Shown here: piece after piece, positions 32,538 through 49,748 of the stretch
How positions within the stretch are numbered: the stretch's first letter is position 1
Layout: each line of letters begins with the position of its first letter
Assembly: GCA_020852815.1 (NCBI GenBank)
Contig: JADZAN010000028.1
Coordinates: 124,001-188,000, forward strand
Source of the DNA: Gemmatimonadaceae bacterium
Lineage (GTDB): Bacteria > Gemmatimonadota > Gemmatimonadetes > Gemmatimonadales > Gemmatimonadaceae
Length of the DNA stretch: 64,000 bases
Direction of reading: 5' to 3'
Notes under the pieces: generated by a model
Database searches by the model: none
What the model was told of the DNA's origin: nothing
What the model saw: only the letters and a program-made list of their open reading frames with translations
Made by a program: the position numbers and the translations under genes

Positions 32538-34676
32538 CTAACGCCCCGGGCGGTAGCGGCGGATGGTGGTGCGTTCGACGTCGGCGGCGGTGAAGGCGAC
32601 GGGCTTCATCTCGCCACGGGCGAACATCGCGGCCTGGTCGGCAAAGAAGGGAGATTCGGGGCGCGAGCTTTCGCCGTAGGCCAGCACCGACACCGCGCGA
32701 GGGGTGGGGGTGAACTCGACGGCGAGGACCCAGCCATCACCGCCGCGCGCGATGCGCTTGCCGTCGGGCGCATCGCTGTACTGCAGGACGCGGAAGCACC
32801 CCAACGCTCCCGTGCAGCCGCCGACCGGAACGTCGACGTTTCCGCGGCGCACGCGATGCACATCGCCCCAGGCGACGTCGGCGCGACCGTAACGGCGCAC
32901 CGTTTCACCCACGGCCCACGCGAAGTCGGCGGCGGCGCGCGCCGGGTCGGCGAGTCCCGACGGCGTGTCGTTGGGGCGCGCCGACGTCCACGGCGTGGCG
33001 AAGGTGCGCCGCTGGCGTTCGGCCATGGGGAGCCCGCGCATTGTCTCGCCCCCTTGCAGGTGACGGGTGAACCAGGCTTCGAACAGGACGCCGCCGCGCG
33101 AGGCCGGGGCGGTGGTACGGTCCCACCGCGACAGCATCGCTGCCGCATCGGCAACGTCGGGGGCGGGGTTGGACGCACGCACCGCGGCCAGCAGGTCGTC
33201 GGTGAAACGCTCACCGACCAGCATGCGATACGAGTGCTTGAGCGCCACGACATCGTCCAGCGTCATCTTCGGCTTCGCCGTCACCAGGCGAAGGGCAAGC
33301 TGCGTGCGGAAGCCTAACGCGGGGCGCGAGAAGTTCGACGGCCAGCGCGTGGAATCGATGATGGCGTTGAGGTTGGTGTAGTGGAACGGGTCGTTCGATT
33401 GCTGGATGTAGCCGCCGGGCGGGTTAAGCAGTTGCGGGAGCGAATCGAAGGGGACCATGTCGCGCCACATCTCGACCGAGGTGCGCACCGGGATGGCGAT
33501 CGAGTCACCGCCCGACGGATGCGGCAACGCCGGCACCGTGGCGTTCCAGACGTAGAAGATGTTCCCGCGCGCATCGGCGTACGTGAAGTTCGACGTGGTG
33601 TGCGCGCGCAGGCGCATTGCCTCCTTCCACTCGTCGAGCGTGCGTGCGCGCATCAGGCGCAGGAACTGCTCTCCCTTGCGGAACTCTCCCTCCGACGGCC
33701 AGCGCACGACGTACACCTTGCCGTTGGCCCGCTCCACCACCGGCCCCACGTGCGTGCGCCACATCGTGCGCACCTCGCTCGAGAGGCCGGCGCCGTTGCG
33801 AAACTCGGCGACGACGTCCACGCGCTGCAGCGGCCGGCTCTCGCCATCCAGCAGGTAGTGGTCGACCTGCGTGGTGTCGACATCCAGGGCGTAGAGCGCC
33901 TCGTTGTCGGTGTTGTTGTTCGTCGTTGCCCATCCCAGCTCGCGATTGAAGCCGCCCACGAGCAGCGACGGATTCCCGATGCGGAAGTCGCCGTAGAAGT
34001 CCATCACGCCGGGAATCGTGACCTGCGCCTCGTAGTAGCCAGCGGTCCACTCCAGGTGCGGATTGCGCAGCAGGATGGTGCGCCCCGACTTCGTGCGCGA
34101 CGGGGCAAAGGCCCAGGCGTTGGACCCTTCGCCTTCCCGCTGCAGCGAATCCTGTCGAGCGCGCTCGCGGCGAGCACGCGCGCGATCGGCGAAGGACTGC
34201 GCCGCGTTGGGGACGGCCTCCTCCATCCAGAGCGCGGCGACGTCCTCACCGGTGAAGTCGGTCGGCATCCACATCGGCATCTCGCCGCGGTGCTGCCGCA
34301 CGTAGTCGTTCACGCCGGCCGCAAAACCGTGGTAGGTGGCGCGCGTCTCTTGTTGCAACTGCCGGAATGTCTCCGCGGCGCGCTGGTGCGCGAGGCGGGC
34401 CTCGAAGTCGCGCTCGAGCGAGTCGCGCCCGTAGTAACGCCCCAGGTGCCCGCGTGCGCGCACCAGTCCCAGCGCCACGCGATCGCCGTAGTCCTCGAGC
34501 TGCACCCACGCCATGGCGTAGCCGAACGCACCAAAATCCTCGGCGCGAATGTGCGGGACGCCGTGCGTGGTGCGGAGAATCTCGACCCGATCGGCATACG
34601 GGCGCGACGGTTGCGCCGCCGCCGCGTGCGCCACAGCGACGATCATTCCGCCCAGTGCAAGTGCGCGCTGCATCAT
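32538..34676 (-). CDS. Penicillin-acylase-family protein, second homologue
   Basis: An S45-family Ntn-hydrolase precursor of 712 residues with a signal peptide (MQRALALGGMIVAVAHAAAA). The autocleavage and catalytic Ser is Ser185 in EGEGSNAWAFAPSRT, a textbook GSNAW. VEILRTTHGVPHIRAEDFGA (31-50) opens the alpha chain; RNPHLEWTAGYYEAQVTIPG and GFNRELGWATTNNNTD follow as expected. It differs from the other S45 homologue in the window (no lipobox, different linker), so this is not a recent duplication. Its start ATG overlaps the TGA of the epimerase-like gene upstream (ATGA), so it is translationally coupled to it. Confidence 0.92.
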   Translation of the reverse strand: MMQRALALGGMIVAVAHAAAAQPSRPYADRVEILRTTHGVPHIRAEDFGAFGYAMAWVQLEDYGDRVALGLVRARGHLGRYYGRDSLERDFEARLAHQRAAETFRQLQQETRATYHGFAAGVNDYVRQHRGEMPMWMPTDFTGEDVAALWMEEAVPNAAQSFADRARARRERARQDSLQREGEGSNAWAFAPSRTKSGRTILLRNPHLEWTAGYYEAQVTIPGVMDFYGDFRIGNPSLLVGGFNRELGWATTNNNTDNEALYALDVDTTQVDHYLLDGESRPLQRVDVVAEFRNGAGLSSEVRTMWRTHVGPVVERANGKVYVVRWPSEGEFRKGEQFLRLMRARTLDEWKEAMRLRAHTTSNFTYADARGNIFYVWNATVPALPHPSGGDSIAIPVRTSVEMWRDMVPFDSLPQLLNPPGGYIQQSNDPFHYTNLNAIIDSTRWPSNFSRPALGFRTQLALRLVTAKPKMTLDDVVALKHSYRMLVGERFTDDLLAAVRASNPAPDVADAAAMLSRWDRTTAPASRGGVLFEAWFTRHLQGGETMRGLPMAERQRRTFATPWTSARPNDTPSGLADPARAAADFAWAVGETVRRYGRADVAWGDVHRVRRGNVDVPVGGCTGALGCFRVLQYSDAPDGKRIARGGDGWVLAVEFTPTPRAVSVLAYGESSRPESPFFADQAAMFARGEMKPVAFTAADVERTTIRRYRPGR

Positions 34677-35851
34677 TTCGGTTGGGTCGCCTTCCACGCC
34701 GCGAGCACTTCCGCCTCGCGCTTCATGTCGAGTCCGTTCACCTCGCCGCGCAGCGTGCGCGCCTGCTCCTCCGCCGGCCGCGTCTTGTGCCAGTCGAGCG
34801 TGTCCTTCGCCGTCACCGCCATGGACCGGAAGGTGAGCCCGGCGGCGATGGCCTTCTCCGCCTTGCGACGTTGGTAGCCAGCCGTGGCGCCGTATGGCGG
34901 TTGCCACACCGTCATGTGCCGCCACGGGCGAACACCTTGCGCCTGCAGGAACTCCCACGGGACCCAGGTGAAGTGCGCCCCGGCCGTCGTCACCGCCTTC
35001 ACGCCGTACAGCATCTCGGCAATCGTCATGGGATGCTGTGGCCCCACGGCGTTGTAGGTGCCGAAGGTGCGCGCCTCGGCCACACGCACCGTCCACTCGG
35101 CAAGGTCGCGCGAGTCGATGAACTGGCACGGATCGTCCGGCTTGTCGGGGGCGAGCACTTCCCCGCCCTGGTCGATGCGCGCCGGCCAGTAGGTGAAGCG
35201 GTCGGTGCGATCGAGTGGCCCGACGATGAGGCACGGACGAATGACCGTGTGCATGTCGGGGTAGTGCGTGGCGACCTCCTGCTCGGCGCGTGTCTTGAGC
35301 GCGCCGTAATATCGGGACGAGTGTTGCGGATCGAGCGTATACGGATCGACGCCGTCGGGCATCGGCGTGGTCGGCGAGCTTTCATCGATCCCGATCTGGC
35401 TCTGGTCGCGATAGACCGAGGTGGTCGAGACGAAGATGTAGTGCTTCGTGTTTCCCTTGAGGTACTGCGCCGCGTTGCGCACCCACGCGGGGAAGGTCGT
35501 GGGATTGTCGATCACCACGTCGAACCGTTTCCCCTTGAGCGCGCTGGTGTCGCTGTTCAAGTCGCCGATGAGTTCCTCGGCCACCTTTCCCTTGAACATG
35601 CCGGGGCGCGTCTTGTTGCGGTTGAAGAGCGTGACGCGGTGCCCGCGGGCGATGGCATACTCGACCTGCTCGGGGCCGGTGAAGCCGGTGCCACCGAGGA
35701 TGAGCATGTTGAGCGAGGCCGGGGCGCGCCCGACATCGCGTCGTTTGTCTTCGAACGCGCGCGAGGCTGCGGCGCTGGACGACGCGGGGGCGAGTGCCAT
35801 CGCACCGCCGATGACGGCACTCGTCTTGAGAAATGAGCGGCGACTGCTCAT
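34673..35851 (-). CDS. NAD-dependent epimerase/dehydratase-like protein with Tat signal
   Basis: An extended short-chain dehydrogenase fold protein of 392 residues. A Tat signal opens it (SSRRSFLKTSAVIGGAMALAPA). The NAD(P)-binding loop is LILGGTGFTGP (50-60), followed by VTLFNRNKT, IDNPTTFPAWVRNAAQYL and FVSTTSVYRD. The usual YxxxK appears as YYGALKTRAE, so catalytic residues look present. Such Tat-exported epimerase-like proteins are common in this kind of genome and are poorly studied. The ATG before SSRRSF makes the full Tat motif and was preferred to one five codons upstream. The Rieske gene ends 67 bp upstream on the same strand, so read-through from that unit is possible. Confidence 0.88.
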   Translation of the reverse strand: MSSRRSFLKTSAVIGGAMALAPASSSAAASRAFEDKRRDVGRAPASLNMLILGGTGFTGPEQVEYAIARGHRVTLFNRNKTRPGMFKGKVAEELIGDLNSDTSALKGKRFDVVIDNPTTFPAWVRNAAQYLKGNTKHYIFVSTTSVYRDQSQIGIDESSPTTPMPDGVDPYTLDPQHSSRYYGALKTRAEQEVATHYPDMHTVIRPCLIVGPLDRTDRFTYWPARIDQGGEVLAPDKPDDPCQFIDSRDLAEWTVRVAEARTFGTYNAVGPQHPMTIAEMLYGVKAVTTAGAHFTWVPWEFLQAQGVRPWRHMTVWQPPYGATAGYQRRKAEKAIAAGLTFRSMAVTAKDTLDWHKTRPAEEQARTLRGEVNGLDMKREAEVLAAWKATQPK

Positions 35852-35918
35852 GGATCGACTCCGCACGGATGGTGGGCGCAGGGGGAGCCTTCAACTTGGC
35901 CGCCGGGCCCGCGTCGCG

Positions 35919-36914
35919 CTACGACGCGGTGGGTCGTGGTTCTGCGGCCGGGCGCGCGCGTGCCGCCAGCCAGGCCAGGTACTCCGAGACCAGCGCGTCG
36001 GCACCAATGGTGCGCCGTGGGTCGAACTGTATTCCTTCTCCCGCAACGATGTCGGGTTCGATGAAGGCGCGAATGAACGACGCTCGCACGCGGACATCGA
36101 TGGCATCGATGCCACGTGCCAGTCCCGTTCGCGGATGCATCCAGACGATGGTGCGCACATGCGACCGCGTGGCGGAGCGAGGATGGATGCTCACCAGGCC
36201 ATACGTCGTCGTACGCCCAAAGCGGGACGTGACGAGAATCAGGGCGCCGGCGCCGGCATTTCGCACCGTCATCTCCGAGCGCGGCCCGGCCAGAACGTGC
36301 GTCACGCGATCGCGCCACGCTGTTCCCACCACCTCGAACGACGCGCGTGCCTCGAAGTGATCGTCTCGCCTGAGGATTTCGGGTGATCCTACGAGCTTTC
36401 GGTCGTGCGCCGTGAGGAAGTGCTGGGCATCGAACCCGTTGGTGCTCACCATCCACCACGGCATCTCCACATCGAAGGCGAACGGCGGCGCCGAGATGAG
36501 GGCGTCGCTCGACGCGTCCGCGAAGAACGGTGCCGGTGTCGTGTGCGCCGGATCGGTGTGGAAGAAGAGGTGGCCGCCGAGAACCGCGACGGGATAGGCA
36601 TCGAGTCGCGCGGCTTCCGGCGGGACTTCGCCCGAGGGCGTGCCATCGCATCGACCGTCGCCGCGAAAGCGCCAGCCGTGCAGCGGGCACTCGAGGCAGT
36701 GCCCCACGACGTTGCCGCGTGCCAGGTGCGCCCCGAAGTGCGCGCAGCGACCGTCCAGCACGTGCAACTGACGGTCGACCGCGAAGGCGACGTACTCTCG
36801 ATTCCCCAGCGTGATCTCCACGGGGCGCCGCATCGACTCGACCGGGGCGACATAGTACCAGCCGTGCGGCACGAGGGGCAAGTCGAGCGCGCCTGCGTGT
36901 TGTCGGGCGTTCAC
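35919..36914 (-). CDS. Rieske non-heme iron oxygenase-like protein
   Basis: A 331-residue oxygenase component. The Rieske [2Fe-2S] ligands are C57-x-H59 (GRCAHFG) and C76-x2-H79 (ECPLHGW). The mononuclear iron site appears as D162-x2-H165-x4-H170 in NGFDAQHFLTAH, the conserved D/N-x2-H-x4-H oxygenase motif. Such enzymes hydroxylate, desaturate or cleave a hydrophobic substrate using O2 and an external reductase, which is not encoded nearby. The start is a GTG that overlaps the TGA of the radical SAM gene upstream (GTGA), tying the two together. In context it may be a tailoring enzyme of the divergent radical SAM/GH3 pathway. Confidence 0.88.
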   Translation of the reverse strand: MNARQHAGALDLPLVPHGWYYVAPVESMRRPVEITLGNREYVAFAVDRQLHVLDGRCAHFGAHLARGNVVGHCLECPLHGWRFRGDGRCDGTPSGEVPPEAARLDAYPVAVLGGHLFFHTDPAHTTPAPFFADASSDALISAPPFAFDVEMPWWMVSTNGFDAQHFLTAHDRKLVGSPEILRRDDHFEARASFEVVGTAWRDRVTHVLAGPRSEMTVRNAGAGALILVTSRFGRTTTYGLVSIHPRSATRSHVRTIVWMHPRTGLARGIDAIDVRVRASFIRAFIEPDIVAGEGIQFDPRRTIGADALVSEYLAWLAARARPAAEPRPTAS

Positions 36915-38656
36915 GTGGTCGCGCGAGCCGGAGTGGAGCGATGCGCCGCCAACGCTCGCCGCGAGACGGGCAGCAACTCGCCTGGCGTCGGGGCGCCGTG
37001 CGTCGGGGTGCCTAACGTTCGCGCCACATCGGCACGCAGCTGCCGGTCGATCCAGCGATGCAGCGTCGCGAACACCCGTCGGACCAGCGGGGCGCCGCGC
37101 ATCGCGTCGCGTTGGAAATCGAGCATCTCGTCACGAATGGCTGGCTGGTATTGCAGGATCCCCTCGTAGAACAGCGTGGCGTCGAGCGATACGCGCCGCT
37201 CGACCAGTTCGTTCGCGAGCCACCGCACATGATGCCCCACCTCGCTGCAGGACATCGTCGTGTGCGCCCAGTAGGGCGAGACAGTTCGTGGATTCGCGTG
37301 CGTCACCAGCCCGTGGCGCGCGGCGAGATCGGGAGCGAGGATGGGGACCGTCGCCACGCGCGTCGAGAAGGTGGCCAGGAAGTGGAAGTCGGGGGATGAC
37401 GCGACCAGCATGTCGCGCGTGGCCTCGAGCGTCGCGCGCGTCTCGCCCGGGAAGCCGACGATGAGTGAGATGACGGTCGTGAGCCCCGCGTCGCGGCAGG
37501 TCGCCAGCGCGCGTGCATTGTCGCGCGCCGTCGTGCGCTTCTGCATGCGGTCGAGCTGCCCCTGGTCTCCCGACTCGATCCCGATTTGCACCTGGATGCA
37601 CCCCGCCGCACGCATGGCGCGCACGACGTCCGCGTCCAGCAGGTCATCGGCGCGGGCATAGCAGATCCACTTGATGCCGATGTTGCGCCTGACGAGCTCG
37701 TCGCAGAACTCGAGCAGCCGGCGCGTGGGCATGGTGAAGAGCGAGTCCAGGCAGGTGATGTACTCCACGCCCAGCGTGGTGGCGTAATGTTCCCAGTCGT
37801 CGGCCATGCGCCGGGCGGAGCGCGTGCGGAACTTCGTGTCGTCGAAGAGGTACGGATAGTTGCAGAAGGCACACCGATACGGGCAGCCGCGCACGCTCTC
37901 GTAGTGGATCATGCGATAGCGCTCTCCGCGGCGTCGCGCGACCAGCCCCCAGTCGGGGCGGTCGAGTGCGTCGAGGGAAAGCGTGGCTGGCACTCCGCTG
38001 AACAGCACCCGCGTCGGGCCAGCGCCCTGGAGCCGCCCGCGCTCCGGCGGGACCAACGTGCGAAAGCCGGAGCGAATCCACTCGGCGAGGGCCGGAACGA
38101 GTGACTCTCCGTATCCCACTGCGAGGATGTCGATGAGTGGCGACCCGTCCCATTGCAGGTGCAGCGTTCCGGCGAGTGCGCCGCCCACGACGATACGATT
38201 CCAGGGACGCTTGAGGCGCACCAGCAAGGGCTCCAGCTCGCTCAGGTCGCGGAGGAACGTTGCCGATGCGAAGACCACGTCGCACGCGCGCAGCTTCGCG
38301 TCGCTGTTGTCGGTGCCGCGCAGCAGGTCGTCGAAGGTGAGGAGCTCGAAGTCGATTCCCTCGCGGGCGAGCGCCGTGGCGAGCACGACTTCGGTGAGCT
38401 CGGGGGTGGCGACGTTCTCGCGCGTTTCGAGCAGCGCGCGCATTTCCGGCGACAACCGCTGACGATGCCGACGCGCGTGCAGCCGGCCGAGCAGCACCGA
38501 CTCGGCGACCGTCGCCTTTACCTTGGCTTCCAGCCACGCGTGCTGGGCGTGGCGCGCCTGCACCACCTGTTTCCACAGCGCGCGAAGCAGGCTTCCTTCG
38601 CGCGCCGACAGGTAGCTCCCCGTGACGATGAGGACCTTCACTGGCGCAGATGCCAT
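36911..38656 (-). CDS. B12-binding-type radical SAM protein (1)
   Basis: A 581-residue radical SAM enzyme. The 4Fe-4S motif is C258-x3-C262-x2-C265 (RGCPYRCAFCNYPY). The ~240 residues before it form a Rossmann-like domain in the position of the cobalamin-binding domain (VKVLIVTGSYLS, ACDVVFASATF, RIVVGGALAGT, ILAVGYGESL), but no DxHxxG cobalt-ligand motif is visible, so B12 binding is uncertain. After the cluster come ITCLDSLFTMP, QIGIESGDQGQLDRM and IVGFPGETRATLE, usual for the class. The ATG before ASAPVKVL was chosen; the upstream extension is Arg-rich filler. It heads the minus-strand arm of the divergent locus. Reaction unknown. Confidence 0.9.
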   Translation of the reverse strand: MASAPVKVLIVTGSYLSAREGSLLRALWKQVVQARHAQHAWLEAKVKATVAESVLLGRLHARRHRQRLSPEMRALLETRENVATPELTEVVLATALAREGIDFELLTFDDLLRGTDNSDAKLRACDVVFASATFLRDLSELEPLLVRLKRPWNRIVVGGALAGTLHLQWDGSPLIDILAVGYGESLVPALAEWIRSGFRTLVPPERGRLQGAGPTRVLFSGVPATLSLDALDRPDWGLVARRRGERYRMIHYESVRGCPYRCAFCNYPYLFDDTKFRTRSARRMADDWEHYATTLGVEYITCLDSLFTMPTRRLLEFCDELVRRNIGIKWICYARADDLLDADVVRAMRAAGCIQVQIGIESGDQGQLDRMQKRTTARDNARALATCRDAGLTTVISLIVGFPGETRATLEATRDMLVASSPDFHFLATFSTRVATVPILAPDLAARHGLVTHANPRTVSPYWAHTTMSCSEVGHHVRWLANELVERRVSLDATLFYEGILQYQPAIRDEMLDFQRDAMRGAPLVRRVFATLHRWIDRQLRADVARTLGTPTHGAPTPGELLPVSRRALAAHRSTPARATT

Positions 38657-38768
38657 GGCGATACGATGCGGCGCATCGCCTCCTGGCGACAGGGGAACGC
38701 GCCGCGCGGATCGCGGCATTCATCCGCGCGGTGGCGCGTGACATGTGCGCACAGGTCCCGGCGTCGAC

Positions 38769-38796
38769 TTGCCGTCATCCGTCGAAGTGGTAGAAT
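38769..38796 (+). promoter_or_regulatory. Sigma-70-like promoter for the radical SAM/GH3 operon
   Basis: TTGCCG and TAGAAT are separated by 16 bases in the 179-bp divergent gap. The -10 box ends 39 bases before the GTG start of the plus-strand operon. Boxes this close to consensus stand out in sequence this rich in G+C. I see no equally good pair for the minus-strand arm. Confidence 0.5.
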
Positions 38797-38835
38797 CGCC
38801 CAAGGCGCCCCTCTCTCCCTGAGGCCGAGGTCGAC

Positions 38836-40335
38836 GTGAACGATCTTGACGCGAGGCATGACTCCAGCGGTTCCAGCGGTTCCAACGGCTCCAGCGGCGC
38901 GCGCGGCGCCGGCGCCACGTCGGCGCGACCGCTGCGTATTGCGCTCATATCGCCCAAGGGGCCGCTCTACCGGCATCGCGGCGGGATCTGGAAGAAGTCG
39001 CTGCGTTACCAGCCGCTCACGCTCACCACGCTCGCCGCGCTCGTTCCGCGCGACGTGCCGCACAGCATCGTCCTCTTCGATGAGGGGATCACCGACGTTC
39101 CGCTCGACCTCGACGTCGACCTGATCGGCATCACCGTCATCACGGGGACGGCGGTGCGCGCGTATGAACTGGCCGATCGTTTTCGCGCCCGCGGGATCAC
39201 CGTGGTGCTGGGCGGGCCGCATGTCACGCTGATCCCCGACGACGCGCAGCCGCACGCCGACGCAATCGTCGTCGGATACGCGGAGGAGAGCTGGCCGCAA
39301 CTCCTGCGCGACGTGCGCGATGGCACGCTGGTGCCGCGCTACGTACAGCGCCCGGGGCTCGACATCGGCGGGCAACCGTTTCCCCGGCGTGAGCTCCTCC
39401 CCAGCGCGCACTTCCTCACCAACAATGTCTTCGAGGCCACGCGCGGCTGCGTGCACCCATGCGAGTTCTGCGTCGTTCCCACCGCGTGGGGACGCAAGCC
39501 GTACCAGAAGCCGGTGCACGAAGTGGTCGCCGACATCCGGCAGCACGGCGCGCGCAAGCTCATCTTCGTCGACCTCAACATCATTGCCGACCGTCGCTAC
39601 GCCGTGGAGCTGTTCACCGCGCTCATCCCGTTGCGGCTGCAATGGTACGGGTTGTCGACGGTGCTGCTGGCGGACGACGATGAACTGCTCGCCCTCGCGC
39701 AGCGGAGCGGGTGCACCGGACTGCTCATGGGGCTCGAGTCGCTCTCGACGACGAACCTCAGGGGAAACCGCAAGGGGTTCAACTCTCCCGAGCAGTACGC
39801 CCGCGTGGTGGAACGCTTGCACGCGCACGGGATCGCGCTGCAAGGGTGCTTTGTCTTCGGCCTCGATGACGACACGCCGGACGTCTTCCTCAAGACGGCG
39901 GAGTTCGCGGTGGAGGCGCGGATCGACCTCCCGCGCTTTGCCGTCGTGACCCCCTTTCCCAACACGCCGCTCTACAAGCGCCTGGACGCGGAGGGGCGCA
40001 TCCTCACCAGGAACTGGGAGCTGTACGACGCGCAGCACGTCGTGTTCCAACCCAGGCACATGAGCGTGCGGGAGTTGCAGCTGGGGATCGAGGCGGCATG
40101 GAAGCACGCCTACAGCTATCGCTCCATCTGGCGACGCCTGCGCCATTCGCCGGCGCCATGGCCGGTGCGCATCGGGACCAACCTGGGGTATCGCTTCTAC
40201 GCCAACAACCTGTCGCGCTTCTACAACTGCGACTGGATCATCGGGCGCGCGCCCTCCGCGCAGCGCATGCCGCCGCCGGCAGGTACAACGCCTATCCCTG
40301 AGTCGGTGGCGCGCGAGCCGGAGGCGGTGTCGTGA
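38836..40335 (+). CDS. B12-binding-type radical SAM protein (2)
   Basis: A 499-residue radical SAM protein, first gene of the plus-strand operon. An N-terminal Ser/Gly-rich stretch (residues 9-27) is followed by a Rossmann-like domain (LRIALISPKGPLY, VDLIGITVITGTA, VVLGGPHVTLIPDDA, AIVVGYAEESWP) and the cluster motif C205-x3-C209-x2-C212 (RGCVHPCEFCVVP). Later LLMGLESLSTTNL, GCFVFGLDDDTPDVF and TPFPNTPLYKRLDAEGRIL match the hopanoid/B12-type radical SAM group with a DUF4070-like C-terminus. No DxHxxG is seen. GTG start. Its stop overlaps the next GTG (GTGA). Similar enzymes methylate, cyclise or rearrange unactivated carbons; the substrate is unknown. Confidence 0.9.
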   Translation: MNDLDARHDSSGSSGSNGSSGARGAGATSARPLRIALISPKGPLYRHRGGIWKKSLRYQPLTLTTLAALVPRDVPHSIVLFDEGITDVPLDLDVDLIGITVITGTAVRAYELADRFRARGITVVLGGPHVTLIPDDAQPHADAIVVGYAEESWPQLLRDVRDGTLVPRYVQRPGLDIGGQPFPRRELLPSAHFLTNNVFEATRGCVHPCEFCVVPTAWGRKPYQKPVHEVVADIRQHGARKLIFVDLNIIADRRYAVELFTALIPLRLQWYGLSTVLLADDDELLALAQRSGCTGLLMGLESLSTTNLRGNRKGFNSPEQYARVVERLHAHGIALQGCFVFGLDDDTPDVFLKTAEFAVEARIDLPRFAVVTPFPNTPLYKRLDAEGRILTRNWELYDAQHVVFQPRHMSVRELQLGIEAAWKHAYSYRSIWRRLRHSPAPWPVRIGTNLGYRFYANNLSRFYNCDWIIGRAPSAQRMPPPAGTTPIPESVAREPEAVS

Positions 40336-41705
40336 CCGCGTCACGGGCCATGCGCCTCACCATCGTGCACCCCTGCGTCGGGCGCATTCCGGGGCAGAAG
40401 TACATCCGCACCTGGCAGATGGAACCGCTCCCCGCGGCCACGCTCGCCGGGCTCACGCCGCGCGATGTCGAGGTGCGCTTCCACGACGACCGCATGGAGC
40501 GCATCCCGTTCGACGAGCCCACCGACCTGGTCGCGATCAGCGTCGAGACGTACACGGCCAAGCGCGCGTACCAGATCGCCAGCGAGTATCGCCAGCGCAA
40601 GGTGCCGGTGGTAATGGGGGGCTTTCACGCCTCGCTCTGCCCGGACGAGGTGGCAACGTACGCCGAGTCGGTCGTGGTGGGAGAGGCCGAGCAGTTGTGG
40701 CCAATGGTGGTGGACGATGCCCGTCACGGCCAGCTGCAAAAGTTCTATCGCGCAGCGGGACGGTCGTCGCTGGCGGGGCTGCGCCCGGATCGCTCGATCT
40801 TCCGCGGGAAGCGCTACCTCCCCATCGGACTGGTCGAGGCGGGGCGGGGGTGTCACTTCTCGTGCGAGTTCTGCGCGGTACAGACGGTCTTCGAGGCCTC
40901 GCAGACGCGACGCCCCATCGACCAGATCCTCGCCGAGGTGCGCGCGCTCAAGGACGAGAAGAAGCTCTTCTTCTTCGTCGACGACAACATCACCTCCAAC
41001 CTGCGGCAGGCCAAGGAGTTCTTCCGCGCCCTCATCCCGTTAGGCATCCGATGGGTGAGCCAGGCCAGCATCAACGCCGCGCACGACGAGGAGTTCCTCG
41101 ATCTCCTCAAGCGCAGCGGGTGCCAGGGCGTGCTCATCGGCTTCGAGAGCCTCGACCCGGCCAACCTCGAGTCGATGAACAAGCGCTTCAACACCGCCAA
41201 GGGAGGGTTCGAGCAGGCGTTAGGCAACCTGCGGCGCCACGGAATCCGCGTGTACGGGACCTTCATCTTCGGCTACGACGGCGACACGCCGGCGAGCTTT
41301 GCCCCCACGGTCTCGTTCGCGCAGTCGCACGCCTTCTACATCGCCGCCTTCAACCACCTCACCCCGTTCCCCGCAACGCCGCTGTACCAGCGCCTGGCGC
41401 GCGAGGGGCGGCTCCTCTACGACGCCTGGTGGATGGACGATCGCTACAGCTACAACCGCATCCCCTTCACGCCGCGCGGCATGTCGCCTGACGAGTTGCA
41501 GCGCTCGTGCCTCGCGGCTCGGCGCACGTTCTACGGCTGGCCCAGCATCCTCAGGCGGAGCCTGGACCCCGTGAACCGCGGCAACGGCTTCATGTGGCGC
41601 AACTTCTACATGATCAACGCGATGCACCGCGCCGACGTGAGCCTGCGCGACCACTACCCACTGGGAGACATGGCATGGCAGGGGGCGCTGCGGCCGGCGC
41701 ACTGA
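40332..41705 (+). CDS. B12-binding-type radical SAM protein (3)
   Basis: A 457-residue paralogue of the preceding protein with the same architecture: Rossmann-like N-domain (MRLTIVHPCVGRIPG, LVAISVETYTAKRAY, VVMGGFHASLCPDEV, SVVVGEAEQLWP), cluster C174-x3-C178-x2-C181 (GCHFSCEFCAVQ), FFFVDDNITSNLRQAK, LIGFESLDPANLESM and GTFIFGYDGDTP. The ending (MWRNFYMINAMHRADVSLRDHYPLG) differs from its neighbour. GTG start overlaps the upstream TGA, so translation is coupled. Having two such enzymes in tandem suggests two successive radical steps on one scaffold; that is inference. Confidence 0.9.
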   Translation: MTASRAMRLTIVHPCVGRIPGQKYIRTWQMEPLPAATLAGLTPRDVEVRFHDDRMERIPFDEPTDLVAISVETYTAKRAYQIASEYRQRKVPVVMGGFHASLCPDEVATYAESVVVGEAEQLWPMVVDDARHGQLQKFYRAAGRSSLAGLRPDRSIFRGKRYLPIGLVEAGRGCHFSCEFCAVQTVFEASQTRRPIDQILAEVRALKDEKKLFFFVDDNITSNLRQAKEFFRALIPLGIRWVSQASINAAHDEEFLDLLKRSGCQGVLIGFESLDPANLESMNKRFNTAKGGFEQALGNLRRHGIRVYGTFIFGYDGDTPASFAPTVSFAQSHAFYIAAFNHLTPFPATPLYQRLAREGRLLYDAWWMDDRYSYNRIPFTPRGMSPDELQRSCLAARRTFYGWPSILRRSLDPVNRGNGFMWRNFYMINAMHRADVSLRDHYPLGDMAWQGALRPAH

Positions 41706-42892
41706 CCGCGCCCGTGCCTGACGACGGCACGTCGGTGCGCCCCGTCGTCACCTCCGTCGTGCGTGACGACGATGCGGCGATTCGCGCTCTCCTGCGCGCG
41801 TCGGTCATTCCCGGCGCGGTGCGCGTTGCCTTCACTCGCGAGCCGGACTACTTCGCCGGCGACGCGCTGGCCGGCGGCGAGGATCACGCCGTGGTCGCGC
41901 GTCACGGCGGCCGCCTGGTGGGATTGGGGCGATGCAGCGTGTACCCGCTCTTTCGCAACGGCGCCCCGGCGCGCGTGGCGTACCTGGGGGAACTGCGCCT
42001 CGCGCCCGGGACGGCCAACGGCGTGCGACTCCTGCGCGACGGCTATGCCGCGCTCGCCGAGTCGGTGGGCGAGGTGGAGGCCTGCTTCACGAGCATCACG
42101 AACGACAATGTGCGCGCCCGCTCCGTGCTGGAGCGCGGCGGGCGACTCGGCTTGCCGGCCTACGCGCCGATTGCATCGCTGGTGACGCTGGTGGCGCCGG
42201 TGGCGCCGGTGGCGCTGGTGGCGCCGGCAGCACCGCTGGCGCCGGCCGCGGGGTTCGCGATGGCGGCACCGGTGCGCTCGGCGCACCCGCCACACCACGT
42301 TGCGGCTGGCGGCGCCGACCGGCGCGCGGATGTCGCCGACGGTTTGGCTTTCCTTGCCCGGCACGCGCCCGACAGGCAGCTCGCGCTGCAGTGGGACGAT
42401 GACCGGCTGGCGCGCCTGGCGCGACACGGCTTCACCGGCGACGATCTCGTGATTGTCCGGCGTGGGGGTGCCGTCGTGGCGGCAGGGGGGATATGGGACC
42501 AGCGTCCGTTCCGGCAGGTGGTGGTGGACGGCTACGCCGCTGCGTTGCAGCTGGCGCGGCCCGCGGTCAACCTGTGGTGTCGCCTCACGCGGCGCCCCGC
42601 ACTCCCGCCGCCGGGGAGCGTGCTGGCGCAGGGGGCGCTCCTCGGCGCCACGGTGTCGGCACCCGGCGATTGGCGCGTGCTTTGGCCGGCGCTGCAGGCG
42701 TGCGCGCGCGCCAGGGGGATCGCCTGGCTCACCGTCGCGCGCGACGCACGCGATCCCGAACTCCCGGTGCTGCGCGCGCTCACGCGTGCGCGCGAGTATC
42801 ACACCACGCTGTACGACGTGGCGCTGGGGCGGCGGTCGCCGGCCGCTGCGTGGGACTCACGCCTGGTACGCCCGGAGGTCGGGCTCCTGTGA
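41675..42892 (+). CDS. GNAT-like N-acyltransferase with Ala/Pro/Val linker
   Basis: A 405-residue protein. Residues about 25-165 look like a GNAT acyltransferase (RDDDAAIRALLRAS, DHAVVARHGGRLVGLGRCSVYP, VAYLGELRLAPGTANGVRLLRDGY, SITNDNVRARSVLERGG). A low-complexity linker encoded by tandem GTGGCGCCG units (near 42184-42250) then leads to a second domain with AGGIWDQRPFRQVVVDGYA and a C-terminal TLYDVALG. Two GNAT-fold halves are plausible. The ATG lies 31 bases inside the preceding gene; a GTG 13 codons later is an alternative. In the operon it could transfer an acyl group onto, or from, the radical SAM product. Acyl donor unknown. Confidence 0.75.
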   Translation: MAGGAAAGALTAPVPDDGTSVRPVVTSVVRDDDAAIRALLRASVIPGAVRVAFTREPDYFAGDALAGGEDHAVVARHGGRLVGLGRCSVYPLFRNGAPARVAYLGELRLAPGTANGVRLLRDGYAALAESVGEVEACFTSITNDNVRARSVLERGGRLGLPAYAPIASLVTLVAPVAPVALVAPAAPLAPAAGFAMAAPVRSAHPPHHVAAGGADRRADVADGLAFLARHAPDRQLALQWDDDRLARLARHGFTGDDLVIVRRGGAVVAAGGIWDQRPFRQVVVDGYAAALQLARPAVNLWCRLTRRPALPPPGSVLAQGALLGATVSAPGDWRVLWPALQACARARGIAWLTVARDARDPELPVLRALTRAREYHTTLYDVALGRRSPAAAWDSRLVRPEVGLL

Positions 42893-43734
42893 CGCTCTCC
42901 CTCACCCCCGATATCCCTGCGTTGCAGGTGGCGGGCGACGTGGCCGATTCGGTTCTCCGCTCCGCACTGGGCGCCAGTGAACGGCACGAGCTGTTTGCGC
43001 TCCTCGACCGCCACTTCGAGGGCGTGACCCCCGTGCAGTTCGCGCGCGACCTCGAGGAGAAGGACTGGGTGCTGCGCATCCGACGCGAGGGCCGGCTCGT
43101 GGGTTTCACGACGTTGCAGCTGTACAGCGCGACGATCGACGGAACGTGCGCACAGGTGCTGTACTCCGGCGATACGATCGTGGCTCCCGAGGCGTGGACA
43201 TCGCCGGTGCTGGCACGCGGGTGGATCGCCCTCGTGCGGGCGCTGCAGCAGGTGCAACCGGGCGAGCGGTGGTACTGGCTCCTGCTCTCGTCGGGCTTTC
43301 GTACGTATCGCTTTCTCCCTGTTTTCTGGCGCGACTTCTGGCCGCGCCACGACGCCGAGGCGCCGGCAGGAGTGCGCGAGACGCTGAATGCGCTGGCGAC
43401 CGCGCGATTCGGGGAGTCGTATGATGCGCGCGCCGGCGTGGTGCGCTTCGCGCATCCTCAGCGGCTGCGTGGCGCGCTGGCCGACATTCCCGACGGTCGC
43501 ACCGACGATCCGCACGTGCGCTACTTCCTGGCCCGCAACCCGGGATGGAGGGCGGGCGATGAACTCGTCTGTCTCACCGAGTTGAGCGACGCGAACCTTA
43601 CGGCTGCGGGATTGCGCATGGTACGCAGCGATGCGCGCCGCTCGTCGCTGTCAACCTCGCTGGAATCAGCAGCGCAAGCACCAGCGCAAGCACCACCGCT
43701 GGCACTCACACAAGTACCGCCGGCGGCACCGTGA
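42889..43734 (+). CDS. Unrecognised protein, possibly acyltransferase-like
   Basis: A 281-residue protein I cannot place in a named family. ALLDRHFEGVTPVQFARDLEEKDWVLRIRREGRLVGFTTLQLYSA resembles the first half of a GNAT-like fold, and RWYWLLLSSGFRTYRFLPVFWRDFWP is a distinctive aromatic-rich block. The last 30 residues are an Ala/Pro/Gln tail (AQAPAQAPPLALTQVPPAAP). No signal peptide or membrane helix. The GTG start overlaps the previous TGA and its own TGA overlaps the next GTG, so it is made together with its neighbours and is likely a pathway component. Confidence 0.7.
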   Translation: MTLSLTPDIPALQVAGDVADSVLRSALGASERHELFALLDRHFEGVTPVQFARDLEEKDWVLRIRREGRLVGFTTLQLYSATIDGTCAQVLYSGDTIVAPEAWTSPVLARGWIALVRALQQVQPGERWYWLLLSSGFRTYRFLPVFWRDFWPRHDAEAPAGVRETLNALATARFGESYDARAGVVRFAHPQRLRGALADIPDGRTDDPHVRYFLARNPGWRAGDELVCLTELSDANLTAAGLRMVRSDARRSSLSTSLESAAQAPAQAPPLALTQVPPAAP

Positions 43735-45440
43735 CCATCGGCGCCACGGTGGCCAATGCGTTATGGTTGGCATCGATGCGCCCGGCGGCGCGTGCGTTCG
43801 AGCGCGCGCTCGACCAGCCGGGCGCCGCGCAGTGGCGCTGGCTCGCTCGCCAGTTGCAGCTGCATGCCTCCAGCGAGTTTGGCCAGGCACGCGAGTTCGG
43901 GCGCATCGACTCGCCGCGGACGTATGCGCGCGCCGTGGAGCTGTGCACCTACGACGACCTCGCCCCACACATCGCGCGCATTGGTGCCGGGGTGCGCGAC
44001 GTCCTGGCCACGGGGCGCGTGACGCACCTGGCCCCGACGAGCGGCTCCACCGGCGCGCGAAAGCTCATTCCGTTCAACGCCGAGTTGCAGCGAGGCTTCA
44101 GCGCCGCCGTGGGCGCGTGGATGCACGACCTCGTGCGCCAGCGCCCGGCGCTGGTCGGCGGTCCCGCCTATTGGTCCATCTCCCCGCTGGTGGAGGAAGC
44201 TGCGGAGGAGAGCAACGCAGCGCGCACCGCGCGGGGCGCCGCGCAGTGCGTCCCACCCGGCGCCGACGAATGCGACGTGCCACACGCCGCCATCCCGATC
44301 GGATTCGCCGACGACGCCGACTACCTCGGCGCGGGCGCTGCATGGCTCGTGCGGCAGGCGATGGCCGCACCGTCATCGCTGCGACACGTACGCGACATGC
44401 AGGCCTTCTGGCGCCTGACCGCGCTCGCGCTCCTCCGCCGGCGGGGGCTGCGGCTCATCTCGGCATGGCATCCGTCGTTTGTCGACATCCTGATGGACGC
44501 GGCCAGCAACGCGTGGGAGGAACTGCTGGATGCCATCGCGAGCGGCACGTGTCCGTGGATCGCCGCGCTCCCGCCCGGCGCACGCGCTGGCTGGACGACA
44601 TCTCCCGACCCTCACCGCGCCGATGAACTGCGCCGCCTGGGACGCGACTCGTGGCCGTCGTGGTGGCCGCAGCTTCAGGTGATCAGTTGCTGGGGAGAGC
44701 AGGGCGCCGAAGCAGGGTGGCGCTCCATTGCACGCCACGTGTCGGCGCATGCATCACACGTGTTGGTGCAGCCAAAGGGGCTCCTCGCCACCGAGGGCGT
44801 GGTGACAGTTCCCCATGGGATGACCCATGTGCTCGCGCTCAATTCGCACTTCTTCGAGTTTCTCGATCGCGACGGGAACGTTCGCTTGGCGCAGGAGCTG
44901 AATCGCGGCGGTGAGTACGAGGTCGTGCTGAGCAATGGCGGCGGGCTGTGGCGCTATCGCCTGGGCGACATGGTGGCGTGCACCGGCCACCTCAAGGCAA
45001 CTCCCACGCTGCAGTTCCTGGGTCGCGCCGGACAGGTGAGCGACCTTCGCGGTGAGAAGCTCAGCGAGCCCTTCGTGGCACGAGCGCTGCGCGGCGCATG
45101 GGAGGGGGGTGAAATGCCCGCTTATGTCGCGCTCCGCGCGTGGAACGATGGGGCGGCAGCCGGCTACGAGCTGCTCGTGGCAGAAGAAGCGCGCGCCGAC
45201 GGCGCCAACGCGCGTGATGCCGCACACGAGGCGCGCCTGCGCCACTTGGAGCGCGCGCTGTGCGAGAACCCGCACTACGCCCTGGCTCGCCGGCTCGGCC
45301 AGCTGCAACCGCTGCGGGAGCGCTCGGTGCCGCGCGACGCCGCGCGTGACGATCTGTGGTCGCACCCCGGGCGCCTGGGCGATGCAAAGCCTCGCCTCCT
45401 GCTCCCTGCGGTGGAGCGGCGCATCGCACCGGACGGCTGA
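43731..45440 (+). CDS. GH3-family adenylate-forming enzyme
   Basis: A 569-residue member of the GH3 family, known in plants as acyl-acid-amido synthetases that adenylate a carboxylate (auxin, jasmonate) and join it to an amino acid. The phosphate-binding loop is T103-S104-G105-S106-T107-G108 (APTSGSTGARKLIPF). Further GH3 landmarks are QVISCWGEQGAEAGWRS, LLATEGVVTVP, NRGGEYEVVLSNGGGLWRYRLGDMV and LRGEKLSEPFV. Bacterial members are poorly characterised. As the last gene of the operon it may activate the acid made by the radical SAM steps and pass it to an amine; the GNAT-like proteins could be partners. GTG start within a GTGA overlap. Confidence 0.9.
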   Translation: MTIGATVANALWLASMRPAARAFERALDQPGAAQWRWLARQLQLHASSEFGQAREFGRIDSPRTYARAVELCTYDDLAPHIARIGAGVRDVLATGRVTHLAPTSGSTGARKLIPFNAELQRGFSAAVGAWMHDLVRQRPALVGGPAYWSISPLVEEAAEESNAARTARGAAQCVPPGADECDVPHAAIPIGFADDADYLGAGAAWLVRQAMAAPSSLRHVRDMQAFWRLTALALLRRRGLRLISAWHPSFVDILMDAASNAWEELLDAIASGTCPWIAALPPGARAGWTTSPDPHRADELRRLGRDSWPSWWPQLQVISCWGEQGAEAGWRSIARHVSAHASHVLVQPKGLLATEGVVTVPHGMTHVLALNSHFFEFLDRDGNVRLAQELNRGGEYEVVLSNGGGLWRYRLGDMVACTGHLKATPTLQFLGRAGQVSDLRGEKLSEPFVARALRGAWEGGEMPAYVALRAWNDGAAAGYELLVAEEARADGANARDAAHEARLRHLERALCENPHYALARRLGQLQPLRERSVPRDAARDDLWSHPGRLGDAKPRLLLPAVERRIAPDG

Positions 45441-46258: not shown

Positions 46259-48718
46259 TCAGCGACTCGACCGTCCCATGTCGGCGCGCACGCCCACCGA
46301 GAGGAGCGCCGGGAGCCACCCCAGCCGCCCCGGGTCGCGCGACGGCGACTCGCGATAGTAGAAGATCGCGTCGCGCCGATCGAGGGCGTTGAGGACGCGC
46401 GCGTAGGGGGCCAGCACCACGCGACACGAGGGTCCGGCCACGCACACGCGCGAGGAGATGGTGGCGTCCACGCGCAGGAACGAGCGTTGCGGGGGGAGGG
46501 CCGACTCCGCCGAGGCCGACACGACGTTTCCCGAGGAAGTCGACGCCGGCGCACTGCGATTGGCGCTCTCCAGGACGACGGCGGCGAACGAGAGGCCGCG
46601 CGCATACGACGCCGAAAGCGATCCGTACAACCTCCAAAGGCGCGCAGCAGCGCCGAGCGAGGCCACCTGCTCGAGGCGCGACGACACCACCTCGGCTGCC
46701 GAGTCGCGGTCCCAGGCGCGCACCTCGCGCGCCACGCGCGAGTACGACGCCGTGAGCGACGTCGCCCCGCGCGCGTACTGCCACATGAGGTCGATGCCAC
46801 GGTGGCGCAGTGCCGACTGCCCCACCCCGGTGCGCTGCGGCCGCTGCCAGTATGCGACGGCTGACACGCCGGCATGTGACCACCGTTGCGACGCCCCAAC
46901 TTCGAGTTGCATCGCGGTCGACTGCGAAAGCCACGCGCCGCCGCCCACCGGCGCGCTGGCCGCCAGCCCGGTGGAGGGGAGCACGGTGGCACCGCCGGAC
47001 TCGTCGAAGAGCGTCGCGGTGCGCGAATAGCCGCCCACCCCCAGGCGCAGCGCACTTCCCCCGCTCGGCGTCGCCTCCAGCGCGAGGCGCGGGAGGAACG
47101 TGACGCGCCCGGCGTCGAAGGCGCTCGGCGCCATCACCGCGCGCCCCCCCACCCCCAGCTGCAACCAGGGCGCGAGCAGGCGGCGGTGGTCGACGTACAC
47201 CGCCCCCGTCGTTCCCGCCACGCGCGCCATCACCGGCACCTGGTCGCACGCCGACGCGATGGGACAGGGATCGCCGCTCCCCGCACTCGTGAGAGGCGCG
47301 CCCGTGGAGTCGCCGGCAACGGTGCGCTGCACGTCCATGCGTTCCCCTTCCACCCCCACTGCCGTCACGGCGCGTGTCGTGCCCCAACGATGCTCTGCCA
47401 GAACGGCCAGGCGGCGCGAGTCGGCGCGGAGGTGTCCCGCACGCAGCGTGAGGAGCGGAAGGTCGATGACGGCGTCGGCGAGCCCGGCGCGCAGCAGCGT
47501 CCCGTGCCGCTCGCGGGTGCGTTCCCATGCCAGCGAGCCGGCGCGGTTGCCCCAGCGGGCGTTGTCGATCCCCTGGTCGCGCGGCAGGTCGAGCGCCTCG
47601 TCGGTGACGAGGGCGGTGGCCCGGAGTTCGTCGCCCGCCGCGGGTTGCAGCTGCAGGCGCACGAAGCCATCGCCGTAGGCATAGCCCGGGTCGGCGCCGG
47701 CCCACTGCGCCACGCGCCCGTCGTTCACGCGCCGCACGCCGGCCATGAGCGAGCCGCGGCTGCCTAACGGGAGCTCGCCGCCGGCGCGCTCGGACAGCAC
47801 GTCGATCGTGGCCCACAGGCGCAACGAGTCGGTGGCCGCCGGCCGGGCACGCAGGTCGAGGACGTAGTCGGTGCCGCCATCGTAGCGCGCCGGCGCTCCC
47901 CCCGACCACATGCGGGCCGGCGCCATCACGTCCTCGTCCACCACGGGGAGGAGCCCCCCCAGGTGCAACGGCGCGCCCAGCGGGATCCCGTCGAGCGTGA
48001 CCCGCGCCCCCGCATCCTTCGCCCCCCAGATGAACAGCGTGCGCCCGTCGCCCCCACTCCCGGGGTCGCCGGCACCGCGCCCGGGCACGACACCAAGGAT
48101 CGCACTCGTCATCGCCCCCGGCGAGGCAAGGAGCGTCGCCGCACGGCTGGACGATGCCCCGTCGGCATAGCGCGCATTCAGCGCCTCGATCCCCGGGGCG
48201 AGCGCGGGCTCGTCGTCACGCGACGCCTGCACGACGATGGCCGACAGCGAGACGGGAAGCCTCGTCAGCTGCACGTCGAGCACAAGCGCCGACCCCTCGG
48301 GGACGACGAGGCCGAGACGCGTGGGACGATACGCCGCACGCGTCACGAGCAGCGTGTAGTGCCCAGGGGTCATCGCCGGAAAGACGAAGCCGCCGTCCAG
48401 CGCCGAGGTGGCCATGCGCGCGGTGCCGTTCCCCTCGAGCACGACGAACGCCGAGGCAAGCGGGACGTCGGCACCGGCGTCGAGCACGCGCCCGCGCACT
48501 TCACCCAGCAGCGTCCGAGCGGAGTCGCGGGCAGTTGCAGCGCGTGCCACGGCGCGCCCCTCCGCGCGCCCCTCAGCGCGCCCCGCCGCGCGAGCGCTGC
48601 CCACCGCGCGCGTCGCCACCGTGCGGGAGAGCGTGTCCTGCTGCTCCATCGCCCGCGCCTCCGGCATCGCGCTCGTCAGGCGCGTCGCGACGGTAAGGGC
48701 GAGGACGGCGGAAAGCAT
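46259..48718 (-). CDS. TonB-dependent-receptor-like outer-membrane protein
   Basis: About 819 residues. After a signal-like start (MLSAVLALTVATRLTSA) and an Arg/Ala/Gly-rich stretch comes a carboxypeptidase-regulatory-like domain (LGEVRGRVLDAGADVPLASAFVVL ... YTLLVTRAAYRPTRLGL), then a plug-like region (GRTLFIWGAKDAGARVTLDGIPLGAPLHLGGLLPVVDED) and a long beta-barrel ending VGVRADMGRSSR. It likely takes up or binds a nutrient at the surface, powered by TonB. The usual C-terminal aromatic residue is missing. The N-region lacks basic residues, so a start a few codons upstream (YRVVL) is possible. It lies downstream of an ECF sigma/anti-sigma pair, which suggests regulation of the FecIR kind. Confidence 0.8.
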   Translation of the reverse strand: MLSAVLALTVATRLTSAMPEARAMEQQDTLSRTVATRAVGSARAAGRAEGRAEGRAVARAATARDSARTLLGEVRGRVLDAGADVPLASAFVVLEGNGTARMATSALDGGFVFPAMTPGHYTLLVTRAAYRPTRLGLVVPEGSALVLDVQLTRLPVSLSAIVVQASRDDEPALAPGIEALNARYADGASSSRAATLLASPGAMTSAILGVVPGRGAGDPGSGGDGRTLFIWGAKDAGARVTLDGIPLGAPLHLGGLLPVVDEDVMAPARMWSGGAPARYDGGTDYVLDLRARPAATDSLRLWATIDVLSERAGGELPLGSRGSLMAGVRRVNDGRVAQWAGADPGYAYGDGFVRLQLQPAAGDELRATALVTDEALDLPRDQGIDNARWGNRAGSLAWERTRERHGTLLRAGLADAVIDLPLLTLRAGHLRADSRRLAVLAEHRWGTTRAVTAVGVEGERMDVQRTVAGDSTGAPLTSAGSGDPCPIASACDQVPVMARVAGTTGAVYVDHRRLLAPWLQLGVGGRAVMAPSAFDAGRVTFLPRLALEATPSGGSALRLGVGGYSRTATLFDESGGATVLPSTGLAASAPVGGGAWLSQSTAMQLEVGASQRWSHAGVSAVAYWQRPQRTGVGQSALRHRGIDLMWQYARGATSLTASYSRVAREVRAWDRDSAAEVVSSRLEQVASLGAAARLWRLYGSLSASYARGLSFAAVVLESANRSAPASTSSGNVVSASAESALPPQRSFLRVDATISSRVCVAGPSCRVVLAPYARVLNALDRRDAIFYYRESPSRDPGRLGWLPALLSVGVRADMGRSSR

Positions 48719-48860
48719 CAGCACGACACGGTACGCACGGTGACGGATTGTCTCAGGATGCGGATTTCGCGGCGGCCCCGCGTCACGCGAGGCGCGAACT
48801 GCAGCGCGCGTCAGGGCCCTTCGCGTTAGACCCGGCGCGTCGCCGCCTGTGTCTCCCTCG

Positions 48861-49748
48861 TTACCGCCCCGGGGTGAGGAGGATCCCGGCCGCCGCTGCC
48901 TCGCCGGGCACGACCGTCGTCCCACGAACGGAGACCACCGTGCGCCCATCGTGCGTCACGCGCGCGCTGCGCAGCGTCGACGGGAACTCCACCTCGACTA
49001 CCGCACCCGCGCCGGCGAGCTGGACCTCGAGCTTGCCATCCCCCGTGAGGAAGCGCGGAACCCGCTCGCTCCCCGCACCGCGCGGCGTGGACGTGACGGT
49101 GACCTGCACGTCGCGCCGGTCGCTGACCCGCACCACCATGCGCGCCGGCGACTGAGACGGTTCGTTGGCCGTTGCAGCCGGCGCCGGCATCTCCAGGAGC
49201 GAGACCAGCGCCTCGCCGTCGACCGGGAGAACTGAGACGGCGGCGGCGGGAGCGGAAAGCGGCGCCGGCGCTACCGGGACATCGATCGCTGCAGTGCTCG
49301 CGCTCGCCGTCACCGGTGTCGCCGAGTCGTTGCGCGACAGCAAGTGACGCCAGCGGGGAGCCGTCATCGCCGCCGCCCCGCCGCCCACAACGAGGAGCAC
49401 GGCCGCCGCACGGCGCATGGCGACCGACGCGCTCCCCCACCACCCGCGGCTCGCGGCGCCGCGATCGCTCAACTTCGTGCGCGCGTTCCCCGCGAGCGGC
49501 CGCACTCGCGTGGCATCACTCGCGATGGAGGACTCGCGCCACCGGCCGCCCGCTCGCCATGCGTCGGGTTCGCGCGTGTCGACGAGTGCCACCTCCACCT
49601 TGAGCGCCGCCATCGCCTCGCGCAGGTCGCGTAGCGCGTGGCGGCACACGGCGCACGTTGCCATGTGCGCGGCCGTCTCGCGGTGCCCCTCCGCGTCGAG
49701 CGTCTCGTCGGCGAAGGCAATCAGCAACGCCTCGCTAGGGTGCGGCAT
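48861..49748 (-). CDS. Zinc-finger (HC2) anti-sigma factor
   Basis: A 295-residue single-pass membrane protein. Its N-terminal zinc finger is H28-x3-C32-x2-C35 (AAHMATCAVCRH), the anti-sigma zinc-binding motif. One membrane helix lies at about 112-130 (RRAAAVLLVVGGGAAAMTA). The C-terminal ~160 residues would be periplasmic and beta-rich (ARMVVRVSDRRDVQVTVTSTP), ending VVPGEAAAAGILLTPGR. It overlaps the ECF sigma gene by 14 bp and would hold that sigma inactive at the membrane. The signal it senses is unknown. Confidence 0.85.
   Translation of the reverse strand: MPHPSEALLIAFADETLDAEGHRETAAHMATCAVCRHALRDLREAMAALKVEVALVDTREPDAWRAGGRWRESSIASDATRVRPLAGNARTKLSDRGAASRGWWGSASVAMRRAAAVLLVVGGGAAAMTAPRWRHLLSRNDSATPVTASASTAAIDVPVAPAPLSAPAAAVSVLPVDGEALVSLLEMPAPAATANEPSQSPARMVVRVSDRRDVQVTVTSTPRGAGSERVPRFLTGDGKLEVQLAGAGAVVEVEFPSTLRSARVTHDGRTVVSVRGTTVVPGEAAAAGILLTPGR

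Follow-up and report, generated by a model that had tools for sequence, protein, structure and literature searches.

The locus under study occupies positions 35919-45440 of the window, by which we mean the whole 64,000-nucleotide stretch of Gemmatimonadaceae DNA analysed here. The seven open reading frames that an earlier sequence-only reading had placed there in two divergent arms were all confirmed; they are tightly packed, with B then A forming the left arm (minus strand) and C, D, E, F and G forming the right arm (plus strand). The features are as follows.

35919-36914, minus strand: A, Rieske non-haem iron oxygenase, accessory tailoring enzyme (Pfam Rieske 1.8e-16, both iron motifs)
36911-38719 (start more likely ATG 38656), minus strand: B, radical SAM protein, accessory (Radical_SAM 4.6e-20, CPYRCAFC)
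38657-38835, no strand: divergent intergenic gap, one sigma-70-like site inside
38836-40335, plus strand: C, B12-binding radical SAM protein, core (Pfam Radical_SAM and B12-binding)
40332-41705, plus strand: D, B12-binding radical SAM protein, core (Pfam Radical_SAM and B12-binding)
41675-42892, plus strand: E, predicted N-myristoyltransferase-type double-GNAT acyltransferase, kernel (AF2 model, VIA-align)
42889-43734, plus strand: F, single-domain GNAT-fold protein, kernel and best cluster marker (AF2 model)
43731-45440, plus strand: G, predicted GH3 adenylating acid-amine ligase, kernel (Pfam GH3 9e-36)

The gap between the arms, previously put at 179 bp, is of this length when the starts are taken as ATG 38656 for B and GTG 38836 for C, and is 116 bp if the longest start of B is used; the ATG at 38656, which gives the N-terminus MASAPVKVL... 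as in relatives, appears more likely. Most junctions had been described as overlapping, and four of the five within the arms (B/A, C/D, E/F and F/G) are 4-bp overlaps, whereas D and E overlap by 31 bp because the start of E was set at ATG 41675. This start (405 aa, MAG...) is most likely, rather than 41702, since the MAG... N-terminus is common to many relatives. A single sigma-70-like site was found in the region (38769-38796, plus strand, about 40 bp before C), a consensus match only, with 0.5 expected by chance. The window also encodes a TAT-signal NAD-epimerase-like protein at 34673-35866 and a long ORF resembling a TonB-type receptor at 46259-48949, and these flanking genes seem to lie outside the cluster.

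The Rieske oxygenase, the three radical SAM proteins and the GH3 enzyme named in the sequence-only reading were all borne out by domains and motifs. In A, the Rieske motif CxH..CxxH (at residue 57) and the mononuclear-iron D/H motif NGFDAQHFLTAH (at residue 159) are both present, as in Rieske non-haem iron oxygenases. Radical_SAM and CxxxCxxC were found in each of B, C and D; C and D carry the Pfam B12-binding domain as well, which places them among B12-dependent radical SAM proteins, and the N-terminus of B reads like a B12-like fold. All three scored below every named radical SAM family's threshold, including the curated cut-offs of BchE, HpnJ, PhpK and TIGR04072. TsrM, CysS, TokK, BchE and HpnJ (and AprD4 by fold) share CxxxCxxC and the B12-binding domain with these proteins and appear among the PDB profile matches, but the proteins of this locus lie far below every cut-off of the named B12-dependent families. 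Ladderane, hopanoid and bacteriochlorophyll pathways were rejected as candidates, with radical SAM scores far below those families and no matching partner genes seen, and so was anti-phage defence, for which PADLOC gave weak generic radical SAM matches and nothing else.

The Pfam GH3 score of G was 124.1 bits against a cut-off of 23.6; its three nucleotide motifs, PTSGSTG..K, KGLLATEG and GGLWRYRLGD, are all kept and are conserved in 22 relatives, and plant JAR1 is recovered at 3.7e-36 with a profile of the G family. A GH3 match on a Streptomyces plasmid was set aside as unrelated by context, sitting as it does in a PKS cluster with thrS, a cluster which we take to resemble that of borrelidin. 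Against the OlsH family (NCBIfam NF052613) G reached 43.7 bits, with a cut-off of 620, and by this score is not an OlsH, a bacterial GH3 enzyme that produces N-acyl ornithine in partnership with an alpha/beta hydrolase (PMC12493201). The OlsH/OlsI ornithine-lipid pathway of Planctomycetes also places a bacterial GH3 with ATP-dependent fatty amide formation in a lipid cluster, but unlike this locus it is without a radical SAM, NMT-type or F-type protein (PMC12493201).

E and F are nearly invisible to Pfam, their GNAT folds being weak by sequence and clear by structure. The earlier description of E as GNAT-like holds for its fold, but from the AF2 model (pLDDT 89.8, confident) and VIA-align, E is more exactly assigned as an N-myristoyltransferase (NMT)-type double GNAT, with two fused GNAT domains and NMT as the best structural match. 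The best 50 PDB entries listed by VIA-align were all eukaryotic N-myristoyltransferases (Z 21.7-23.0), aligned over about 300 residues at 3.6-4.1 A and 10-14% identity; Foldseek by E-value puts acetyl-transferring double GNATs above NMT, whereas the VIA-align Z and the TM-scores, which were followed here, favour NMT. F, previously left unrecognised, is assigned from its AF2 model (pLDDT 90.4) as a GNAT-fold protein with one domain, at Z 11-13 to NatD, AAC(2') and GCN5.

Most alignments of E extend to the very end of the model, where they pair it with chain residues 496, 492, 451 or 410, which we take to be natural NMT C-termini; model residue 396 stands opposite the last aligned NMT residues, as read from the alignment and not from active-site coordinates. 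Of 85 E relatives whose reading frame closes within the contig, 77 finish in L, 4 in V and 3 in I, 84 in all, and the sole exception has a frame that looks broken. This ending in exactly L, V or I is what a catalytic C-terminal carboxylate would lead one to expect; NMT1 uses its final residue, Gln496, as catalytic base (PMC12219266). NMT-type double GNATs have been reported in bacteria and archaea from structure searches, with the caution that the same structure does not prove the same activity; small-molecule double GNATs have an NMT-like fold too (PMC12219266). E shares with the eukaryotic and other NMT-type proteins (PMC12219266) a full-length fold match and a C-terminal residue at the same end of the fold, but unlike NMT it is bacterial, about 10% identical, and encoded in one operon alongside a GH3 ligase and radical SAM enzymes. 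The Pfam NMT profile PF01233 gave no match in the genome of the window up to E 10, nor among the members of alignment A1. This and the identity of about 10% to NMT make any assignment of acyl length and acceptor to E tentative. The NpuN-type bacterial tandem-GNAT acyltransferases are likewise double GNATs and put a fatty acyl group on a natural-product amine, but they act on ribosomal lanthipeptides, while here no precursor peptide or lanthipeptide synthetase was noticed, and for NpuN a protein other than NMT is reported as the nearest solved relative (PMC13060382).

A search with C, at one genome per species, returned 57 loci, with C identity mostly 56-84%. Of these, 26 have C flanked by 7.5 kb or more in each direction, and among them D was present in 26/26, E in 26/26, F in 24/26 and GH3 in 23/26, counts that are biased towards C-bearing loci; one apparent loss is explained by F and GH3 being located just past the fetched stretch (L065). 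By record titles the carriers fall into eight groups (Verrucomicrobiota, Chloroflexota, Planctomycetota, Acidobacteriota, Pseudomonadota, Gemmatimonadota, Myxococcota and Desulfovibrio), the cultured Chthoniobacter flavus Ellin428 (L047) being one named carrier, and C-D-E-F-G was found linked, with gene set and order kept, over eight phyla, so that the recurrence on which the sequence-only reading depended is established. This conservation of the set across phyla is far beyond chance. Searches with F in whole genomes showed exactly one copy per positive genome, in 6/200 genomes of the window's phylum, 9/369 of the class of Limnobaculum, 11/241 of Verrucomicrobiota, 1/201 of Chloroflexota and 17/199 of Planctomycetota, a sporadic presence of 0.5-9% of genomes per group. 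In the C tree, the window joins another Gemmatimonadaceae bacterium and one Acidobacteria bin within Verrucomicrobiota, a pattern that fits horizontal transfer, of which such patterns are no proof. One version of the cluster is borne by a Citrobacter portucalensis plasmid typed as mobilizable, which carries F, GH3, C, D, E, two D paralogues, PAP2 and a DUF4440-like gene together with a fifth radical SAM gene and a desaturase; the Citrobacter cluster is without a near match in E. coli.

The seven genes had been taken as one unit. This stands for C-D-E-F-GH3, within which E-F-GH3 is the kernel, but A and B are accessory to the conserved unit. Relatives of A (26-46% identity) were found in 18 loci; B-like genes, 49% identical, adjoin the core in two Acidobacteria loci (L066 and L070), the only ones besides the window in which B was seen with the full core, and a B relative also stands beside E-F-GH3 in a gammaproteobacterial locus (L140). 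The kernel is near-invariant, with C and D as its usual companions and other C-H-functionalising enzymes optional. The whole-genome F search gave 25 loci in which 3.5 kb or more flanks F in each direction: 23 of these have GH3, 22 have E, 22 have E and GH3 together, and 16 have C or D. When every search is pooled, 50 loci have flanks of 5 kb or more in each direction, the majority of them fetched through C, and the counts were 48 for GH3, 47 for E and 40 for C or D. The recurrent accessory genes encode fatty acid desaturase, PAP2, DUF4440-like membrane protein, Rieske, AurF, P450, alpha/beta hydrolase-like and hexapeptide proteins, labels which come from a simple ORF caller and HMMs, by which short genes may be missed.

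Several versions differ in what surrounds the kernel. A protein of about 900 aa combining RnfD, FG-GAP and UnbV_ASPIC occurs in 4 of the 50 loci and in none of them together with C or D, which, given how few such loci there are, does no more than suggest mutual exclusion. Such a fusion (900-944 aa, RnfD-like) adjoins E-F-GH3 at L140:5315-8074, L141, L146, L160 and L161, where C and D are absent. UnbU and UnbV proteins belong to enediyne PKS cassettes; their RnfD-like and UnbV_ASPIC domains are here fused and replace C/D in some kernel loci, but unlike the enediyne cassettes the fusion loci contain no PKS, and the fusion is absent from the window. In a verrucomicrobial locus (L153:5000-11212), two radical SAM proteins precede E-F-GH3 in place of C and D, and read as a MoaA/Tes-like pair different from C and D. 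Burkholderia arboris (NZ_CP101525.1, L101:8773-17683) has E-F-GH3 with a PAP2-desaturase fusion, more desaturases and a Rieske oxygenase, in a stretch unannotated in the record from which radical SAM genes are absent. A cytochrome P450-like gene lies near the core in L048, L049 and L064, where the Rieske oxygenase is absent, as if P450 and Rieske oxidases were interchangeable. In Acinetobacter baumannii (NZ_CP104448.1, L102:6440-13804), HlyD-like, MFS, F, GH3, TolC-like and E genes stand in one run without a radical SAM gene, possibly a minimal, exported version, and an MMPL-like transporter lies beside the kernel in two planctomycetes; these transporter names (HlyD, MFS, TolC, MMPL) are a reading of the sequences and not HMM results. 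Acinetin-505 was considered for the Acinetobacter locus and rejected, as that operon adjoins abaR/abaM/abaI in papers and none of these was recognised there.

Taken together, we consider with moderate confidence that the locus represents one form of a modular cluster for the biosynthesis of a lipid-derived amide, spread partly by horizontal transfer. An amide-type, lipid-derived metabolite had been proposed before, and with the set now seen to recur it is the best reading, for which we infer product and substrates. The product would probably be a fatty amide, with radical enzymes modifying its carbon chain. E would take a long acyl chain from acyl-CoA or acyl-ACP and attach it to an amine, its own C-terminal carboxylate serving as base by analogy with N-myristoyltransferases; F may make a second acyl transfer, and GH3 would adenylate a free carboxylate and condense it with an amine to close the amide. 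C and D, aided in the window by B and A, could modify unactivated carbons of the chain or scaffold by methylation, cyclisation or hydroxylation, an amine part being the other conceivable target of C and D, and the product would probably be exported or put in the envelope, export being suggested by other versions and not by the window, in which no exporter was identified. Two acyltransferase-fold proteins and an acid-amine ligase may be enough in principle for a multi-acyl amide from primary metabolites, and since the targets of the variable enzymes are unactivated carbons or double bonds, the simplest reading would be a decorated alkyl chain. The conserved gene set and order, the E-F-GH3 linkage seen again through F, the desaturase, AurF, P450, Rieske and PAP2 neighbours, the transporter-like genes beside some kernels, the plasmid copy, the fold and C-terminus of E and the GH3 motifs of G all point this way, as does the analogy of OlsH, a bacterial GH3 capable of fatty amide formation (PMC12493201). 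Against it, the donor is not indicated by any acyl carrier, KS or peptide gene.

Other explanations account for parts of these data. The genes could instead build a membrane aminolipid of ornithine-lipid type, with GH3 making an N-acyl amino acid, E and F adding acyls, and the radical SAM enzymes and oxygenases modifying tails or headgroup to tune the membrane, and nothing secreted. OlsH, which N-acylates ornithine together with an alpha/beta hydrolase (PMC12493201), is a precedent, and desaturase, PAP2 and alpha/beta-hydrolase-like genes are common neighbours, but the OlsH score of G (43.7 against 620) speaks against it, and the sporadic distribution and the dedicated exporters of some versions better suit a specialised metabolite, so we regard this reading as unlikely, if deserving of attention. 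Improbable in our view is that E acts on proteins or peptides, as a bacterial protein N-myristoylation for which the other genes make an unusual acyl group: the whole-length NMT match of E would favour it, but the fold is common to small-molecule double GNATs (PMC12219266), E is constantly linked to an acid-amine ligase, and no gene for a conserved peptide or substrate was noticed among the ORFs called there, calls that omit very short genes.

That the seven genes are unrelated neighbours, adjacent by chance, is hardly credible. The inconstant presence of A and B and the separate transcription of the two arms are in keeping with it, but the linkage of C-D-E-F-G across phyla at 56-84% C identity already contradicts it for those five genes, B is again beside the core in Acidobacteria, relatives of A recur, and start and stop codons overlap. 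Returning to the lipid-derived amide, a bolder form of it is quite possible, though somewhat less likely than not: a new, widespread lipo-amide class made with no NRPS or PKS by a bacterial NMT-type enzyme and a GH3 ligase. Up to five B12-type radical SAM enzymes would cyclise or polymethylate its alkyl chain, and one conserved scaffold kernel would accept interchangeable modules for C-H activation, either radical SAM or the RnfD/UnbV-like fusion.

The earlier statement that no described cluster with this gene combination was known agrees with the searchable papers, a scope that excludes most subscription journals, where none matched. The cluster is present in eight phyla and on a plasmid, and is built of enzyme types little known in bacteria: NMT-type double GNATs have been reported there from structures only (PMC12219266), OlsH is the characterised bacterial GH3 considered here (PMC12493201), and the B12 radical SAM proteins belong to no assigned family. 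Because the partner genes are known, the role of bacterial NMT-type proteins is now directly testable. Mining rules built on NRPS/PKS cores would likely miss such lipid products, for which the E-F-GH3 trio provides a search handle among lipid natural products.
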